This document shows, piece after piece, positions 9,125 to 15,661 of a stretch of 47,973 nucleotides of DNA. Location: NCBI GenBank assembly GCA_029263235.1, contig JAJCXW010000118.1, positions 1-47,973 on the forward strand. The letters run 5' to 3'. Positions within the stretch are counted from its first letter, which is position 1. Each line of letters starts with the position of its first letter. A program made the position numbers and the translations under genes. Source of the DNA: Acidimicrobiales bacterium (lineage in GTDB: Bacteria > Actinomycetota > Acidimicrobiia > Acidimicrobiales > Aldehydirespiratoraceae). The notes beneath the pieces are model-generated. The model did not search any database. It saw only the letters and a list, made by a program, of their open reading frames with translations, and had not been told where the DNA came from.

Positions 9125-10279
9125 ATGTTTCAGATGAGTTCGCGACCCGAGGATTCAGAGCTATTTGCTGCGGTGCCGTCGCCTGCGCCGGTGGCCTCAC
9201 AACGGCAGCGACGAACCGGCGTGTGGGTGGTGCTGGCCCTACTGCTGGGTGGTGTCGTCGGGGCGGCCGGCGGGGCGGCTGCTATCGGGCTCACGAGGGA
9301 CGCCGATCGGGTGTCGCTCGAGATCGCGGCCTCCGAAGTTTCGCGTACATCTGGTTCGATGGTCGTCGACACCACCGGGGAACGTTCGCTCGACAGCTAC
9401 GGCGGCTACGGGACGTGGATCGATGTGTTCGACTACTCGCCGGCCTACACGGCGCGGTCTCCGGTGCTGGTGCCGGGCGACGTTGCCGAGATGGCCGAGT
9501 TCGGAGTCGCCACCCTCTACATGCAGGCGGCCCGTCTCGATTCTCGAACCCCCAACGGACTCGAAGATCCGTGGCTCCTCGCCGACTTCCTGTTGTCGGC
9601 CCACGCCGTGGATATCGATGTGGTGGCCTGGTATCTACCCAAGTGGAGCGAGGATGACTCCGACCTGCGAAGGGTCGAGATGCTCCACGAGTTTGAGATT
9701 CTCGGCCACCGCTTCGACGGGGTGGCCATCGACATCGAATGGACCGGCGGAGACATCGATCTCGAGACCCGCAATTCACGGTTGGTCGCCCTCAGTGCTG
9801 CTGCCAACAAGTCGCTGGCTGGCGACCCCCTTGCCGCAGTGGTGCTGCCTCCGGTGTTGACCGAGGTGGTGAACACCGCGTTCTGGCCCGAGTTTCCGTG
9901 GACCGAGATCGCCGACGACTACGACGTGTGGATGCCCATGAGCTACTGGTCGTTCCGGTCGCAGCGATCGGGATACGGCGATGGCTACAACTACAACGAG
10001 GAGTCGACCAGGCGGCTGAGAGACAACCTCGGCGACCCCGATGCGGTGGTGCACGGCATCGGCGGCATCGGAGGAGTGGACGGCGTGAACGATGATCCGA
10101 GCCCTGAGGAACCTCTCACCGAGCTGGCGGAGCTCGACGCGTTCGTGAATTCGTTGGTGGACACCGATTCGATCGGCGGCTCGGTATATGACTGGGCGAC
10201 CCTCGAGACCGAGGCTCGCGAGCGTCTGGCGCGGTTGTTTGGCGAGGGCCCGGGTTCACAGTTGCCCGCCGTTCCCTGA
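9125..10279 (+). CDS. membrane-anchored GH18-like TIM-barrel protein
   Basis: 384 residues. A cytoplasmic N-terminus of about 30 residues ends in RQRR, followed by one transmembrane segment (VWVVLALLLGGVVGAAGGAA) and a large extracytoplasmic domain. Within it FDGVAIDIEW resembles the GH18 signature DG-x-D-x-D-x-E, keeping the final D-x-E but with Ala at the middle Asp, and DVWMPMSYW resembles the M-x-Y strand of GH18 barrels. A glycosidase or a carbohydrate-binding pseudo-enzyme is inferred. ATG 9125 and ATG 9134 are both possible. The 3' end overlaps the convergent next gene by 24 bp. Confidence 0.75.
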   Translation: MFQMSSRPEDSELFAAVPSPAPVASQRQRRTGVWVVLALLLGGVVGAAGGAAAIGLTRDADRVSLEIAASEVSRTSGSMVVDTTGERSLDSYGGYGTWIDVFDYSPAYTARSPVLVPGDVAEMAEFGVATLYMQAARLDSRTPNGLEDPWLLADFLLSAHAVDIDVVAWYLPKWSEDDSDLRRVEMLHEFEILGHRFDGVAIDIEWTGGDIDLETRNSRLVALSAAANKSLAGDPLAAVVLPPVLTEVVNTAFWPEFPWTEIADDYDVWMPMSYWSFRSQRSGYGDGYNYNEESTRRLRDNLGDPDAVVHGIGGIGGVDGVNDDPSPEEPLTELAELDAFVNSLVDTDSIGGSVYDWATLETEARERLARLFGEGPGSQLPAVP

Positions 10280-11071
10280 CCCGGAGGCATCGCCGGCCGG
10301 CACGGCATCTGGACGCAGACACGCCTCGATCTGTTGGTGCACAGCAGGATCGAGTAGCTCTTCCAAGTCGGTGAGAATGGGGATGGGCTCAGGGGTGTCG
10401 GCAATGCACCAGCGCGAGAACGAACCGGTGTCGAGCCACTGGGCGATCTCGGGGGTCATGCTGGGCCAGCGCAGGGAGCTGTCGGCCACCAGCGCATGAA
10501 GCTCGCGCCACCGCACCCGGAATTGTGCTCGTGCCACAGGGGTGGGGTGGGATCGTTGGGGGCGGGAACCACACACCGGATGAAGCGCGGCGACAACCGG
10601 CCATCTGATCTCGGCACCGAGCCCAGCGTCGAGGACCGTGGTCATCACGCGGTCGAGCCAGATGCGGTCGAGGAGGTCGATTGGTTGGCCGTCGGGCGGG
10701 GGAGTGGGGATCCGCATCGCCCGCCGACCGACATCGATGAGCGGCGCGACCTCGGTGGTGGGATGTAGTTGGCGATTCGCCGACCGGTCGATGATCAGAG
10801 ATCGGCCAGCGCGGGGCACCACGACGGCGATGAGTGTGCTCTGGCTGGCCGGCCCCGACCGCACCGAGACATCCAAGGGATAGGCGATGGCGGTTGTGCC
10901 GGGGGGACACACCACCCCGACCACCGGCCCGTAGTCGCTCGAGAACGAGGCGGGGTGGCCGGGCCGGTTGGACGGCGAAAGCATGAGTTGGCGACCCGCG
11001 ACGATCGCCACGGCTTCACCCGATCGGGCGACTGTCTCGCCGAGGTCGATCATTTCCTGGCTGGTGGTCAT
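10256..11071 (-). CDS. hypothetical protein
   Basis: A 271-residue protein I do not recognise. There is no signal peptide or membrane segment. The N-terminal half is beta-rich with short hydrophobic strands (GEAVAIVAG, VVGVVCPPGTTAIAYPL, STLIAVVVP); the C-terminal half is helical with several tryptophans (LDRIWLDRVMTTVL; RVRWRELHALV). ATG 11071 is the first start in frame. Codon composition is like the neighbours, supporting a real gene. Its end overlaps the convergent GH18-like gene. Confidence 0.6.
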   Translation of the reverse strand: MTTSQEMIDLGETVARSGEAVAIVAGRQLMLSPSNRPGHPASFSSDYGPVVGVVCPPGTTAIAYPLDVSVRSGPASQSTLIAVVVPRAGRSLIIDRSANRQLHPTTEVAPLIDVGRRAMRIPTPPPDGQPIDLLDRIWLDRVMTTVLDAGLGAEIRWPVVAALHPVCGSRPQRSHPTPVARAQFRVRWRELHALVADSSLRWPSMTPEIAQWLDTGSFSRWCIADTPEPIPILTDLEELLDPAVHQQIEACLRPDAVPAGDASGSGNGGQL

Positions 11072-11314: not shown

Positions 11315-12847
11315 GTGGCGCAGCGATCGGCAACCCTGCCGAGGAGAACCTTGACCAATCACAGGAAGCCGACGTCTACGGCCTCGTTCGGTGCAGGACG
11401 CCGTGAGAGTCACGACTCGTCGGCCTTCTATTCGAGATTCACGCCTCCAGCCGTATCCGACTCCACCGATGTGGTCGCACCATCAGATCGCCCGCTCGAA
11501 GACGCGATTCTCTGCGGCACCGCCGAGCACTGTCTCGGTGGCCAGGAATCGGTGCGCGACGGCTCGGTTGCCCTGGTGGTCACCTCACCGCCCTACTTCG
11601 TGGGCAAAGACTACGAAGAGGCCATGGGCCAGGGCCACGTGCCCGCCGAATACAAGGACCATCTGGCCGGCCTCCACCGAGTGTTCGAATTGTGCGTCGA
11701 CAAGCTCGAGCCCGGCGGACGAATAGCGGTCAACGTGGCCAACCTCGGCCGACGGCCCTACCGCTCTCAGGCCGCCGACATCGTGCGCATATTCGAAGAT
11801 CTCGGCCTGCTTCTTCGAGGAGAGATCATCTGGAAGAAGGGCGAGGGATCCAACGGCTCCACCGCCTGGGGTTCGTTCCAGCGCCCATCAAATCCGGTAT
11901 TGCGCGACACCACCGAACGCATCCTCGTGGCCAGCAAGGGACGATTCGATCGGGCCATGCCGAGCCGCGAGCGGGCCGAGAAGGGTCTTCCGTCGGTTGG
12001 GTCCATCACCCGCGAAGCCTTCATGCGCGACACCAAGGACGTCTGGGAGATCGCCCCAGAGAGCGCCACCCGCGTCGGACACCCGGCTCCGTTCCCGCTG
12101 GCCCTCCCGGGACGGCTGATCGAGCTCTACACCTACTACGGAGACCTCGTGCTCGACCCCTACATGGGCTCGGGCACAACTGCGGTGGCCGCGGTGCGGA
12201 CCCAACGCCACTTCATCGGCTGCGACACCGAGGCCGAATACGTGGCAGCAGCCGAGAAGAGGGTTCAAGTCGAGCGGGTCCGGCTCGAGTCGGCTGAGCC
12301 CCGCATCCGGGTGGTCGTTCCCGCGGTCAGAGGGGCCGACGCCGACACTCCCGAGAATCCCCGGTCGCGAGCCATGCGCGAAGGTCGCAAGGCCAACGAG
12401 ATCGCGGAGTTGGTGCTCCACGAATGTGGCTTCACCGATGTGAAGACCAAGGTGAAGCTGCGCTGCGGGGTCGAGATCGACTTCTCCGCCATCGCCACCG
12501 ACGGATCTGTCTGGCATTTCGACTTCACCGGGGCGTTCACCAGCGAACGAGCCGGGCTGCGTCGGGTCGATTCTGTCTGGCGATCCCTCGGCAAGGCCGG
12601 GGTGCGGCGCTACGACGAAGAAGTGGCCGACGATTTCGTTCCATTCGTTCTGCTCACCACTGCTCTGCCCACGGCTGGAGTCGGGCTTCGCGCTTTAAGA
12701 ACCGCCCGAGATGCCGGACTGATTCACGATGCGGTCGAGGTGCTCAGCGACGCCGGCCAAGAGCGCCTGGCCCACTACGCGTCCACTGGTCGCGACTGTG
12801 GAGATCTCAAGTTTCTGGTGGCTCAAGAACCCGACTCGCTGTTCTGA
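11315..12847 (+). CDS. DNA methyltransferase (beta class) with C-terminal nuclease-like domain
   Basis: 510 residues. Motif IV, TSPPY (90-94), precedes motif I, DPYMGSGTT (280-288), the order of beta-class N4-cytosine/N6-adenine methyltransferases; the target-recognition region lies between. After about residue 355 comes an extra domain with EIAELVLHECGF, GVEIDF (386-388 = EID) and WHFDFTGAF, the layout of a PD-(D/E)xK fold. The lysine of the (D/E)xK motif is Thr here (DFT), so it may be inactive or serve DNA binding. GTG 11315 has GGAGG five bases upstream; a TTG at 11351 also has a GAGGAG. A nuclease-like gene follows after 15 bp, suggesting a restriction-modification-like pair. Confidence 0.85.
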   Translation: MAQRSATLPRRTLTNHRKPTSTASFGAGRRESHDSSAFYSRFTPPAVSDSTDVVAPSDRPLEDAILCGTAEHCLGGQESVRDGSVALVVTSPPYFVGKDYEEAMGQGHVPAEYKDHLAGLHRVFELCVDKLEPGGRIAVNVANLGRRPYRSQAADIVRIFEDLGLLLRGEIIWKKGEGSNGSTAWGSFQRPSNPVLRDTTERILVASKGRFDRAMPSRERAEKGLPSVGSITREAFMRDTKDVWEIAPESATRVGHPAPFPLALPGRLIELYTYYGDLVLDPYMGSGTTAVAAVRTQRHFIGCDTEAEYVAAAEKRVQVERVRLESAEPRIRVVVPAVRGADADTPENPRSRAMREGRKANEIAELVLHECGFTDVKTKVKLRCGVEIDFSAIATDGSVWHFDFTGAFTSERAGLRRVDSVWRSLGKAGVRRYDEEVADDFVPFVLLTTALPTAGVGLRALRTARDAGLIHDAVEVLSDAGQERLAHYASTGRDCGDLKFLVAQEPDSLF

Positions 12848-12862
12848 CGTCGGGAAGACTCG

Positions 12863-13873
12863 ATGGCAGCCATCCGCACCGAAATCTCCGAGATCGTCAC
12901 CGGGTTGGGCTTGTTCGGGTTTCGCGACCTTCCCCGGGCGCTGGCTGCCCGTCCCCGATACATCACCAATGTCGACGATTCCGTCTACGACCGGCTCGAC
13001 GTGGCATTCGCCGCAGGTCTTCACTCCGAGGTGTTCGAGACGGCGTTCGCCAACGGGGTGGCGTTCGCCCGGGCCGAGGAGGCCCTGCGCGGTAGACCCC
13101 CCTGGATTGTGGAGTGGAAAGGCCCACATCGGCCCCCGGCCTACGAACAGATACCAGCCGATCTCCGGGTCGATCACGTCTACCTGATCAGCTGCAAGTA
13201 CGGCTCCAACATTCTTCACAACTCCTCGCCCTGGCACCTCTTCGCCGGGGCCCTCGCCGACCGCTCCAAGAACTACAGCGACTGGTTCGTGGAGGCCGCG
13301 CCGCGTTCCTATCAGTCGTTCTACGACGAAGTCCGACAGTTGGTCGGGCCGCGAGTCCTTCCCGAGAAGGTCGCCGATCTCGAGCCCACCCATCGTAAGT
13401 TTCTGCAGAAATCGCTGCCTCGCCGCTGGCCCACCGAGCTGAGGCCACACTGGGAACTCGTTGCCTACGACATCGCGCGAGCCAGCGCCGACCGGCTTCT
13501 GGCCGCCACATCGACCAAGAGCCTCCGAGAAGAGCTTCTGTGGAGACTGCTGCGCCTGCAGGCATCCCCCTACTTTGTGTTGGGCGCCGATATGCGGGGA
13601 GATCCGCTCCGATATCGGGTCACCACCCCGTGGGACTTTCGTACCCGATATCGGGTCAAGTCGGTTGATCTATGGGGCGAACCAGCAGGTCAGCCCACCG
13701 TGCGATGGCGGGCCGACCTGATCGACCAGCAGCTCTCGCAGGCCCGCATCGTCGAAGGCCACGTCGAGATCAGATGGAGCCACGGCAAGTTCGCCGGAGC
13801 CCCCGAAGCCAAGGTCTATCTCGACACCCCGCACCACGACGTGGCTGGCTACGAAGTGATCAGCCGGCCCTAA
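12863..13873 (+). CDS. hypothetical protein, candidate restriction-type nuclease
   Basis: 336 residues, no family recognised with certainty. A conserved-looking core at 81-115 contains WIVEWKGP (E84-x-K86), VDHVYLISCKYGS (D104, S110-C-K112) and NILHNSSPWHLF, which resembles the D...(E/S)xK metal site of PD-(D/E)xK nucleases. The rest is helical with many Arg and Trp, and a beta-rich C-terminus (VRWRADLIDQ; HVEIRWSHGKF). It lies 15 bp behind the methyltransferase gene and is surely co-transcribed. The inferred role is the restriction or partner subunit of that methyltransferase. Its 3' end overlaps the convergent exonuclease gene by 14 bp. Confidence 0.65.
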   Translation: MAAIRTEISEIVTGLGLFGFRDLPRALAARPRYITNVDDSVYDRLDVAFAAGLHSEVFETAFANGVAFARAEEALRGRPPWIVEWKGPHRPPAYEQIPADLRVDHVYLISCKYGSNILHNSSPWHLFAGALADRSKNYSDWFVEAAPRSYQSFYDEVRQLVGPRVLPEKVADLEPTHRKFLQKSLPRRWPTELRPHWELVAYDIARASADRLLAATSTKSLREELLWRLLRLQASPYFVLGADMRGDPLRYRVTTPWDFRTRYRVKSVDLWGEPAGQPTVRWRADLIDQQLSQARIVEGHVEIRWSHGKFAGAPEAKVYLDTPHHDVAGYEVISRP

Positions 13874-14492
13874 CCAACTGCTGAACCTCGGCCGAGCCGA
13901 GAGTGAGCCGGGCCGTGGCCCAACGCCGCTCGACCAGCGCCCGAGCCAGATGGGCATCGCTCGCCACATAGGCCCGGCACTCGGCTGTCGACAACTCGTG
14001 GATACGACGGCGGTCGACCTCGATCACAGGTAGCCCCACGAACTTCGCCAGAGGCTTCAGCCCGCACGACAGGTGGACGGAGTCGCCGACATCGGCACGA
14101 AACAGCAGGTAGCCGTCGATGTGGGCCTGGCGAAACCAGGTGGCGCGACCACGGGGGTGGCGCAACCCGAGCTCGATTCCGAGCATCTCGGCGCGTCGGG
14201 CGATGAACGGAAGATCGAATCGGGTGCCGTTCCATGTGATGAGCGCCCCGGGACTCAGCGAGGAAATCAGATCGTCGAGACGTCGGAGGATCGCTGACTC
14301 TCCACCAACGGACTCGCCATCGAGAACCTCCTCCAGGCCCTCGCCCGTGAGCGCCACCGCCACGATCGGTGCGACCTCAGGGTCGAGGCCATTGATCGAA
14401 GTGTCGGTCTCGATGTCGAGTCCGTAGGTGGGGAAGTCACGCGGAGAGTTGATGGAGGAATCGTACGGCAGAGGTCCGACACGCACGGTCAT
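13860..14492 (-). CDS. RNase H-like 3'-5' exonuclease
   Basis: About 210 residues. The three exonuclease motifs of the DnaQ/PolB-proofreading superfamily are visible: Exo I YGLDIETDTS (D-x-E), Exo II ITWNGTRFDLPF (N-x3-F-D) and Exo III YVASDAHLARAL (Y-x3-D). It therefore probably hydrolyses DNA or RNA from 3' ends with two metal ions, like the stand-alone predicted PolB-like exonucleases. The start is uncertain: ATG 14492 and ATG 14519 are both in frame and lie inside a duplicated 16-bp stretch (CATGTCGGTGTCGCCA), and neither has a clear ribosome site. It is convergent with the nuclease-like gene. Confidence 0.8.
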   Translation of the reverse strand: MTVRVGPLPYDSSINSPRDFPTYGLDIETDTSINGLDPEVAPIVAVALTGEGLEEVLDGESVGGESAILRRLDDLISSLSPGALITWNGTRFDLPFIARRAEMLGIELGLRHPRGRATWFRQAHIDGYLLFRADVGDSVHLSCGLKPLAKFVGLPVIEVDRRRIHELSTAECRAYVASDAHLARALVERRWATARLTLGSAEVQQLVRAG

Positions 14493-14548
14493 GTCGGTGT
14501 CGCCACGTCGGCTGGCCATGTCGGTGTCGCCAGGTCGGAGTTGCCCTG

Positions 14549-15661
14549 TCAGCTCGGGATCAGCCTCACGGTGAACATTTCCGGCCATCTCTTGCCGCCC
14601 AGCAGCAGGGTGCCGTCGCCGAGATCGGCGATTCCGTTGAGCACGTTGCCCGAGTCGTTGCCGATGCGACCGGCAACACGGTCGAGCAACTCCGAGGCGT
14701 CGACGACGGCGAGGGTCCGGCCTGATTCCGGGTCGATGACGATCAAGTCGGTGGTCGTGTAGATGTTCGCCATCACGAGGCCATCGATGCATTCGAGTTC
14801 GTTGATCGCATCGATCGAGTCGCCGTCGACGGTCACGTCAACCGTCTTGATCACCGAGAAATCCGTGGGGTTGCGCCAAGTGAGTTGGTCGGTTCCGTCG
14901 CTCATCAGCAGATGCGTGTCGGCGAGACAGATTCCCCATCCCTCGCCTTCGTAGGACCATTCACCGAGGGGCTCGAGCGACGCCCGATCCCAGCGCAGGG
15001 CCCGGCCTTCCCGCCAGGTGATCTGCAGCAGTTCGTCTCCGACCACGGTGAGGCCTTCGCCGAAGAGTTGCCCGTCGAGTTCGACCTCGGTGAGCACCTC
15101 GCCCGACGACGGATCAACGATCCGGATCGACGATTCGCCGTAAAGACCGGCGCTCTCGTAGAGCACATCGTCGGCGAGTTCGAGCCCTTGCAGATACGAC
15201 GATGGGTCGTGGGGGGTGGAGTCGAGAACCTCGATGGTCCACGACGCGACACCGTCCCCATCAGCAGGATCATTGGGCCACGGACTGACACGGTCGTCCG
15301 ACCCCGACACTGACGAGGCAGAAACGGTCGATGACGACGATGACGACAATGATGACGCCGACGGCTGGACGGAGGTGGACGGCCCGTCGGTGTTGCCGAA
15401 CTGGCCAATGGCATCGGACCCACCGGAGCCACAACTCGCTGCCAATAGCGCGAGCAGGACAACCAAGGAAGTCCAAGGCCGAGGAGACGTGACCCGGGAA
15501 GGCCTAACCCCACTAGGCGAGGCCAGAGCGGACGTGGCCAGAGCGGACGTGGCCAGAGCAGACGAGGCCGGGGAGGACGTGGCCGGGGAGGACGCGACGC
15601 CAACCGAGGTTCGGTTAGACCGGCCTCGGCGAGAGAACCGGCTCTCAGAAGGGGAGGCCAT
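14549..15661 (-). CDS. glutaminyl-peptide cyclotransferase-like lipoprotein
   Basis: 370 residues. The C-terminal 240 residues match the bacterial/plant-type glutamine cyclotransferase beta-propeller (SYLQGLELADDVLYESAGLYG; GLTVVGDELLQITWREG; LNGIADLGDGTLLLGGKRWP), which forms pyroglutamyl N-termini. LVVLLALLAASCGS is a lipoprotein signal with lipobox cysteine; a Ser-rich linker follows. An unusual N-terminal stretch of about 57 residues precedes the signal, including an ALATS-type repeat encoded by five 15-bp DNA units, so the true start may be later. ATG 15661 is chosen; GTG 15679 is also open. It is divergent from the GGDEF-EAL gene. Confidence 0.85.
   Translation of the reverse strand: MASPSESRFSRRGRSNRTSVGVASSPATSSPASSALATSALATSALASPSGVRPSRVTSPRPWTSLVVLLALLAASCGSGGSDAIGQFGNTDGPSTSVQPSASSLSSSSSSTVSASSVSGSDDRVSPWPNDPADGDGVASWTIEVLDSTPHDPSSYLQGLELADDVLYESAGLYGESSIRIVDPSSGEVLTEVELDGQLFGEGLTVVGDELLQITWREGRALRWDRASLEPLGEWSYEGEGWGICLADTHLLMSDGTDQLTWRNPTDFSVIKTVDVTVDGDSIDAINELECIDGLVMANIYTTTDLIVIDPESGRTLAVVDASELLDRVAGRIGNDSGNVLNGIADLGDGTLLLGGKRWPEMFTVRLIPS
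15521..15595. repeat. five tandem 15-bp units within a lipoprotein gene
   Basis: Units start at 15521, 15536, 15551, 15566 and 15581. The first two are identical (GGCCAGAGCGGACGT) and the last two share GGCCGGGGAGGACG. The period is a multiple of three, so the repeat codes for an Ala/Ser/Thr peptide ahead of the lipobox and copy number can vary without frameshift. Confidence 0.85.

Follow-up and report, generated by a model that had tools for sequence, protein, structure and literature searches.

Separate-gene Type IIP restriction-modification (R-M) systems are the natural point of comparison for two adjacent genes, M and R, at positions 11,315 to 13,873 of contig JAJCXW010000118.1 from an Acidimicrobiales bacterium; the whole stretch of 47,973 nucleotides that was analysed is called the window. 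In both, an amino-methyltransferase gene shares one operon with an adjacent nuclease gene (a candidate here), the pairing is conserved, and R is lost more readily than M. The likeness has limits: here M carries a dead nuclease domain, Mc, apparently derived from its partner nuclease; the R family lies outside Pfam; the locus is fixed in one family; and M is found nearly order-wide. The CfrBI-type system on plasmid NZ_CP063000 comes close in its methyltransferase, to which M is ~31% identical over residues 43-310 and which is paired with a restriction endonuclease (REase) gene; the match stops short of Mc, however, and the profile of R finds no similarity to the CfrBI REase, nor to a cyanophage REase. 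The site of CfrBI is CCWWGG.

Two further systems bear on the architecture. In the heterodimeric Type IIT/IIS nuclease BspD6I, as the available excerpt of PMC4081073 has it, a small PD-(D/E)XK catalytic subunit also stands beside a larger one; its large subunit is a nickase in its own right, whereas the partner here is a methyltransferase with a dead domain. DnmA of Bacillus subtilis is homologous to MmeI but lacks the nuclease motif, and a helicase gene and an endonuclease gene lie downstream of it (PMC7261158, in the portion available). Like the present pair, DnmA-YeeB-YeeC, so far as that portion describes it, combines a chromosomal methyltransferase without a working nuclease motif and a separate downstream endonuclease gene (a candidate here), with no shown restriction. 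The differences are substantial: DnmA is MmeI-like, ~120 kDa, and its missing motif is N-terminal, whereas M is a 510-aa beta-class enzyme with the dead domain at its C-terminus; and the DnmA system, in the same account, has a helicase gene, with no counterpart in the 15 bp between M and R (or elsewhere, where a gene X of ~107 aa intervenes).

The reading favoured here, at a probability of roughly two in three (0.68), is that M and R form a chromosomal, largely vertically inherited Type II-like R-M operon of Acidimicrobiales, with R as the separate nuclease. M would mark the chromosome by methylating a specific site, and R would cut that site where it is unmethylated. Mc would go back to a copy of N, an earlier partner nuclease; this copy would have been fused to the methyltransferase, have died by losing its catalytic residues, and have been retained to help M bind DNA or assemble. 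R, of an apparently unrelated family, would now hold the place of N behind M; and in many lineages, with R absent or eroded, M would be left alone as an order-wide methylase.

M (11,315-12,847, plus strand) opens with a GTG start that has GGAGG 5 nt upstream. Its residues 85-315 (11,567..12,259, plus strand, by the Pfam match boundaries) match PF01555 at E 3.5e-37; residues 14-323 match the PADLOC model MTase_II PDLC03350 at E 1.6e-83; and the closest solved chain is 2zie (E 1e-28 over residues 79-317). Beta-class enzymes are recognized by a PF01555 domain in which motif IV (S/D-PPY) stands ahead of motif I (DPxxGSGTT), and in M TSPPY precedes DPYMGSGTT. M is thus assigned as a beta-class DNA amino-methyltransferase with a C-terminal pseudonuclease domain. 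It is predicted to methylate one specific DNA site; the SPPY motif may hint at N4-cytosine methylation, which is our guess. An earlier sequence-only reading had proposed the beta class, along with two open reading frames (ORFs) 15 bp apart and the residues EIDF...FDFT in the C-terminal part; both ORFs are intact and in place, and all these motifs are there.

That reading had also proposed that the C-terminal part of M is a degenerate PD-(D/E)xK domain with its Lys replaced, and here it was right. Mc comprises residues 343-510 (12,341..12,844, plus strand), as supported by an AlphaFold2 model (pLDDT 75, pTM 0.74) and by homology to N. The model has the alpha-beta-beta-beta-alpha-beta core of the PD-(D/E)XK fold, and the proteins it resembles most closely in structure are for the most part PD-(D/E)XK nucleases: its top structural match is BsoBI (Z 10.0, rmsd 3.5, 143 aligned), followed by Cdn1 (Z 9.2), BstEII (8.9), PspGI (8.7), EndoMS (8.2) and the BspD6I small subunit (Z 8.1, rmsd 3.8, 134 aligned); CheY-like proteins come lower down the list, at Z 6.4-7.0, and Foldseek E-values are weak, 0.02 at best. 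What clinches the relationship is sequence homology to the standalone N nucleases (hhalign probability 99.6, E 3.1e-24).

The dead active-site hairpin lies at residues 387-405 (12,473..12,529, plus strand), placed by alignment with N and column counts; in the window it reads E-I-D389 ... F-D403-F-T405, with Thr where the catalytic Lys is expected. Columns were counted over 108 of 117 M proteins. The nine left out, of <=430 aa, come from G051, G068, G070, G075, G092, G144, G156, G221 and G232; G051, G070, G092 and G221 carry at least a partial Mc, and the Mc of G232 is a separate gene. The Lys column (K60 of N) holds Lys in 0/108 Mc rows, mostly Ser, Ala or Thr, against 6/6 for N; the E58 column holds Glu in 7/108 (Asp in 96) against 6/6; and the D44 column holds Asp in 17/108 against 6/6. 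R67 (104/108), G69 (108/108), R72 (101/108) and D74 (95/108) are retained, as they are in all six N proteins, and G61 is kept in 108/108. Neither the D ... (D/E)xK signature of an active nuclease nor the Type IIG/IIC single-chain arrangement is found; by its residues, Mc is a PD-(D/E)XK fold that is catalytically dead. A still-active Mc with a substituted Lys, which would make M alone a Type IIG-like bifunctional enzyme, could appeal to D389 and D403 of the window protein and to known nucleases that recruit D/E or K from elsewhere (PMC4081073, as excerpted). With the three catalytic columns so depleted in Mc and all kept in standalone N, this is hardly credible.

The N proteins, found in six genomes (G051, G095, G144, G156, G189 and G285), are small, homologous to Mc and encoded by genes of their own. 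Their D-x13-E-x-K site is intact, with D44, E58 and K60 retained in every one. Their ORFs lie at L143:2437-2853, L192:2974-3375 and L142:2723-3100 on the minus strand, and at L193:3424-3840, L194:1845-2261 and L195:2268-2675 on the plus strand; the three N proteins scanned against Pfam gave nothing above the cut-off. In G189, G285 and G095, N stands downstream of M-Mc, directly or after the small gene X; in G051 the contig edge leaves just an end of Mc and X ahead of it. In G156 it comes after an M of 302-306 aa without Mc, the genes overlapping by stop and start, and in G144 it is convergent to such an M. Behind M-Mc, then, N holds the position that R takes in M-X-R loci, and R is absent from 6/6 N genomes. 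Since N, with its intact site, fills the R slot behind M-Mc, Mc is counted as a paralogue, now dead, of the nuclease that belongs to this system; the degenerate domain of the sequence-only reading becomes, so amended, what is left of a partner nuclease that other genomes retain intact. Standalone Mc-like genes lacking the ExK motif also occur (L049:5884-6627, L196:2573-2974, L197:2575-2946 and L198:2334-2528, all plus strand), those of L049, L196 and L197 convergent to M.

R, the candidate restriction nuclease (12,863-13,873, plus strand; ATG start, 336 aa), begins 15 bp after M. Among 50 R proteins two clusters of residues are conserved. In cluster 1 (13,112..13,198, plus strand, from column counts: E84, P98, D100, D104, S110-C111-K112), E84, P98, D100 and K112 are found in 50/50, D104, S110 and C111 in 49/50. 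In cluster 2 (residues 300-322, 13,760..13,828, plus strand, from column counts and a PADLOC match: E302-x12-E315-A-K317), E302, R304, W305, P314, E315 and K317 are each 50/50; in the model they lie on a hairpin with strands at 293-305 and 314-320. According to the excerpted PMC4081073, both halves of the PD...D/EXK motif can vary, and 4 to 51 residues can separate them. D100-x9-SCK is consistent with this pattern, Ser taking the acid position. E302-x12-EAK also fits it and coincides with the sole REase model match: PADLOC REase_II PDLC03456 matches the window protein over residues 300-322 only, at E 0.0015. The protein ends 19 residues after K317, which leaves too little chain for the remainder of the canonical fold. 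In a check of 29 R proteins, 28 matched PDLC03456, the best at E 8.9e-5, and among 100 relatives all 12 matches at E<=0.01 are R loci; a search of 296 phylum genomes at 1e-6 gave no match, nor did the controls, so that result is uninformative. The residues proposed earlier as a plausible metal site, D104 with S110-C-K112, are present, but D104 varies once where D100 and E84 never do, and another set, E302, E315 and K317, is just as conserved and is the one that coincides with the only database match.

The relatives examined are those 100 genomes, mostly titled as metagenome-assembled genomes of Acidimicrobiia, Acidimicrobiales or Acidimicrobiaceae. R matches occur in 47: 44 full-length and three remnants (G004, G024, G071), in genomes that keep M. 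In a phylum-wide draw R was matched in 10/396 genomes, eight of which belong to this order or its class, and in plasmids, phages and IMG/VR viral contigs not at all. The Mc domain is present in 87/100 relatives, and an M match was found in 44/50 genomes picked mostly for being without R or without M beside R. M is thus nearly order-wide in Acidimicrobiales, and genomes that retain M have repeatedly lost R or carry it in eroded form, as would suit an ancient R-M system whose methylase was retained alone in many lineages. An Mc-type M accompanies R in 44/44 intact-R genomes against 43/56 of the others (Fisher p 0.0004), or, among genomes >=90% complete and <=5% contaminated, 31/31 against 35/42 (p 0.018), in tests that ignore phylogeny. 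M and R are adjacent in 39/44 R genomes: 37 on the same strand, one judged from match coordinates (G042) and one with M divergent to R (G050). The sequence-only reading had left conservation of the pair to a survey of neighbourhoods, and the pair proved conserved.

Ten close pairs of R give dN/dS of 0.045-0.137, strong purifying selection, and this together with the conserved M-R pair places the genes far beyond chance ORFs. On the M tree, R presence labels switch 17 times, where shuffled labels switch 37.6 times, so there were several losses or gains of R. When the methyltransferase domains are placed in a quick tree, the Mc-less M proteins of G075, G144, G156 and G232 fall on one side (SH-aLRT 99) on long branches. 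R of the window's genus is nearest other genomes of family f1 (0.72 identity to G012), while its M is nearest G066 (0.60, against 0.48 to G012); the different closest genomes suggest that M was exchanged in place in this genus.

Several results weigh against reading the pair as an R-M operon. Near-universal M and shared phylogeny make the 44/44 co-occurrence only moderately informative, and shared ancestry alone could yield the correlation of R and M distances (0.67, or 0.78 without the window's genus, over 49 of the 50 R genomes, the remaining one having no M row). M lies elsewhere in 5/44 R genomes (G007, G013, G029, G069, G074). The REase match in the window R spans just 23 residues of a profile of 387 positions; R has no match in Pfam, NCBIfam or PHROGs; searches of Protein Data Bank sequences, single and with a profile, gave nothing convincing; and the R profile has no similarity to the N/Mc alignment. 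The structure model of R reaches pLDDT 68.5. In the fold search Foldseek gave no E <0.001 and VIA-align a best Z of 4.0 (cystatin/NTF2-like rows), and as VIA-align re-examines Foldseek hits, the search excludes no fold. Nor did palindrome avoidance help: in 200 kb from each of two R+ and two R- genomes, with 486 kb of pooled R+ loci, no site separated the two R+ from the two R- genomes, CTAG, CGCG and others being low in both alike.

The modelling proposed in the sequence-only reading had, in sum, a mixed outcome: it gave the PD-(D/E)XK fold for Mc and was poor at the site claimed in R, where the model is unreliable over much of residues 72-137 and has pLDDT <50 over 100-121; the fold searches were uninformative. 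The R family is covered in full by no curated family model among those searched. That R, a candidate, is the cognate restriction nuclease is the best reading, and the claim stands on operon position, on the alternation of N and R, and on the REase match, not on fold.

A second perspective takes R not as a nuclease but as a companion that binds DNA or regulates, perhaps by reading the mark, beside a methylase with a housekeeping role. A companion of that sort would agree with the undetectable nuclease fold, with the fixed chromosomal position of the locus in family f1, and with the wide persistence of M without R. It accounts poorly for the replacement by R of an intact PD-(D/E)XK nuclease in the same operon slot, all six N genomes being without R, for a Type II REase model that matches nearly every R protein checked, and for two invariant acid/Lys sets; we consider it improbable.

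Another alternative makes M and R unrelated neighbours held together by regional synteny. In family f1, 12 loci (L021-L023, L025-L028, L032-L034, L038 and L054) share a chromosomal position and the gene order CarD, p384, p271, M, (X), R, exo310, QC, single genes missing in some, and CarD, p384, p271, exo310 and QC are likewise conserved neighbours; at L028 and L032 M is gone from this place with R still there, and at L033 and L034 R is a remnant. The five R genomes with M elsewhere also suit this view. M and R are adjacent, however, where no other window neighbour was found (L036, L039, L041, L042, L044-L048, L050, L051 and L053, among others), and again in another class (L202), which makes synteny alone very unlikely.

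A further possibility, doubtful in our judgement, concerns the purpose of Mc. M with its dead domain would be the specificity and assembly subunit of a methyltransferase-dependent restriction system, in which R or N cuts only when docked via Mc; Mc would serve as a docking or regulatory half-site, akin to the inactive half of a nuclease dimer. DnmA has been suggested as part of a Type I-like system (PMC7261158, in the portion available), and DnmA-YeeB-YeeC is a precedent for this layout. The Mc fold residues are retained (G61 and G69 in all rows, R67 and R72 in nearly all) with the catalytic ones gone, and every intact-R genome has an Mc match. In G232 an unfused dead Mc protein lies between an Mc-less M and R in a tight operon, the Mc gene and R overlapping by 1 nt; this 305-aa protein (L202:6476-7393, minus strand) is a dead Mc with an extra C-terminal region. 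Yet Mc is equally conserved in genomes without R, which supply 60 of the 108 rows, so that R alone is no explanation, and two genomes pair N with an Mc-less M.

A broader version, speculative and also unlikely, is that of a modular methylase platform, on which a dead nuclease domain, domesticated from the restriction enzyme of the system itself, both docks and licenses an effector that can be exchanged: N, R or none at all. X would be one more companion. If so, restriction would depend on M, the M mark would be a housekeeping epigenetic signal of most Acidimicrobiales, and R would be a new nuclease family.

Under the preferred reading, a Type II-like R-M operon, the material lays out likely stages on the way from an R-M system to a methylase that stands alone: first M and N as separate proteins, then an M with a dead N fused to it, then an unrelated R in place of N, and last the loss of R. 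It also indicates a DNA methylase spread through nearly the whole order, a group almost without methylome data in the literature searched: a search on Acidimicrobiia methylomes returned one paper, whose Acidimicrobiia bin has 0 motifs and 0 methylases in the part of it available. A literature search for the M-R pair found nothing, which is no proof of its being unpublished. Three protein families, R, N and X, are without a Pfam match above cut-off and open to cheap testing.

X, of ~107 aa (for example L023:5660-5998, plus strand, with homologues elsewhere), lies behind M in 32/100 genomes, of which 24 have an intact R and 8 do not; it matches nothing in Pfam above the cut-off. It is possibly a third component; as an obligatory one it was rejected, being absent from the window's genus and adjoining M with or without R. 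Rejected too as part of the system was exo310, which is beside R in family f1 and elsewhere in several other families. Its ORF in the window (13,860-14,792, minus strand, 310 aa) is exonuclease-like and overlaps R by 14 bp at its 3' end; it is probably called too long, as many relatives match only from about residue 107, several with internal stops.

A few observations stand by themselves. In the R-less genome G006 (L229-L238), CAGCTG occurs 0 times in 200 kb against 180 expected, both strands counted; a search of that genome for a PvuII-type REase found none, but the control also gave no match. On the other side of M, p271 (10,256-11,071, minus strand, 271 aa) has no Pfam match and is kept beside CarD and M/R across the family. 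Finally, G071 carries a decayed second M-Mc copy at L144:1599-2338 (plus strand).

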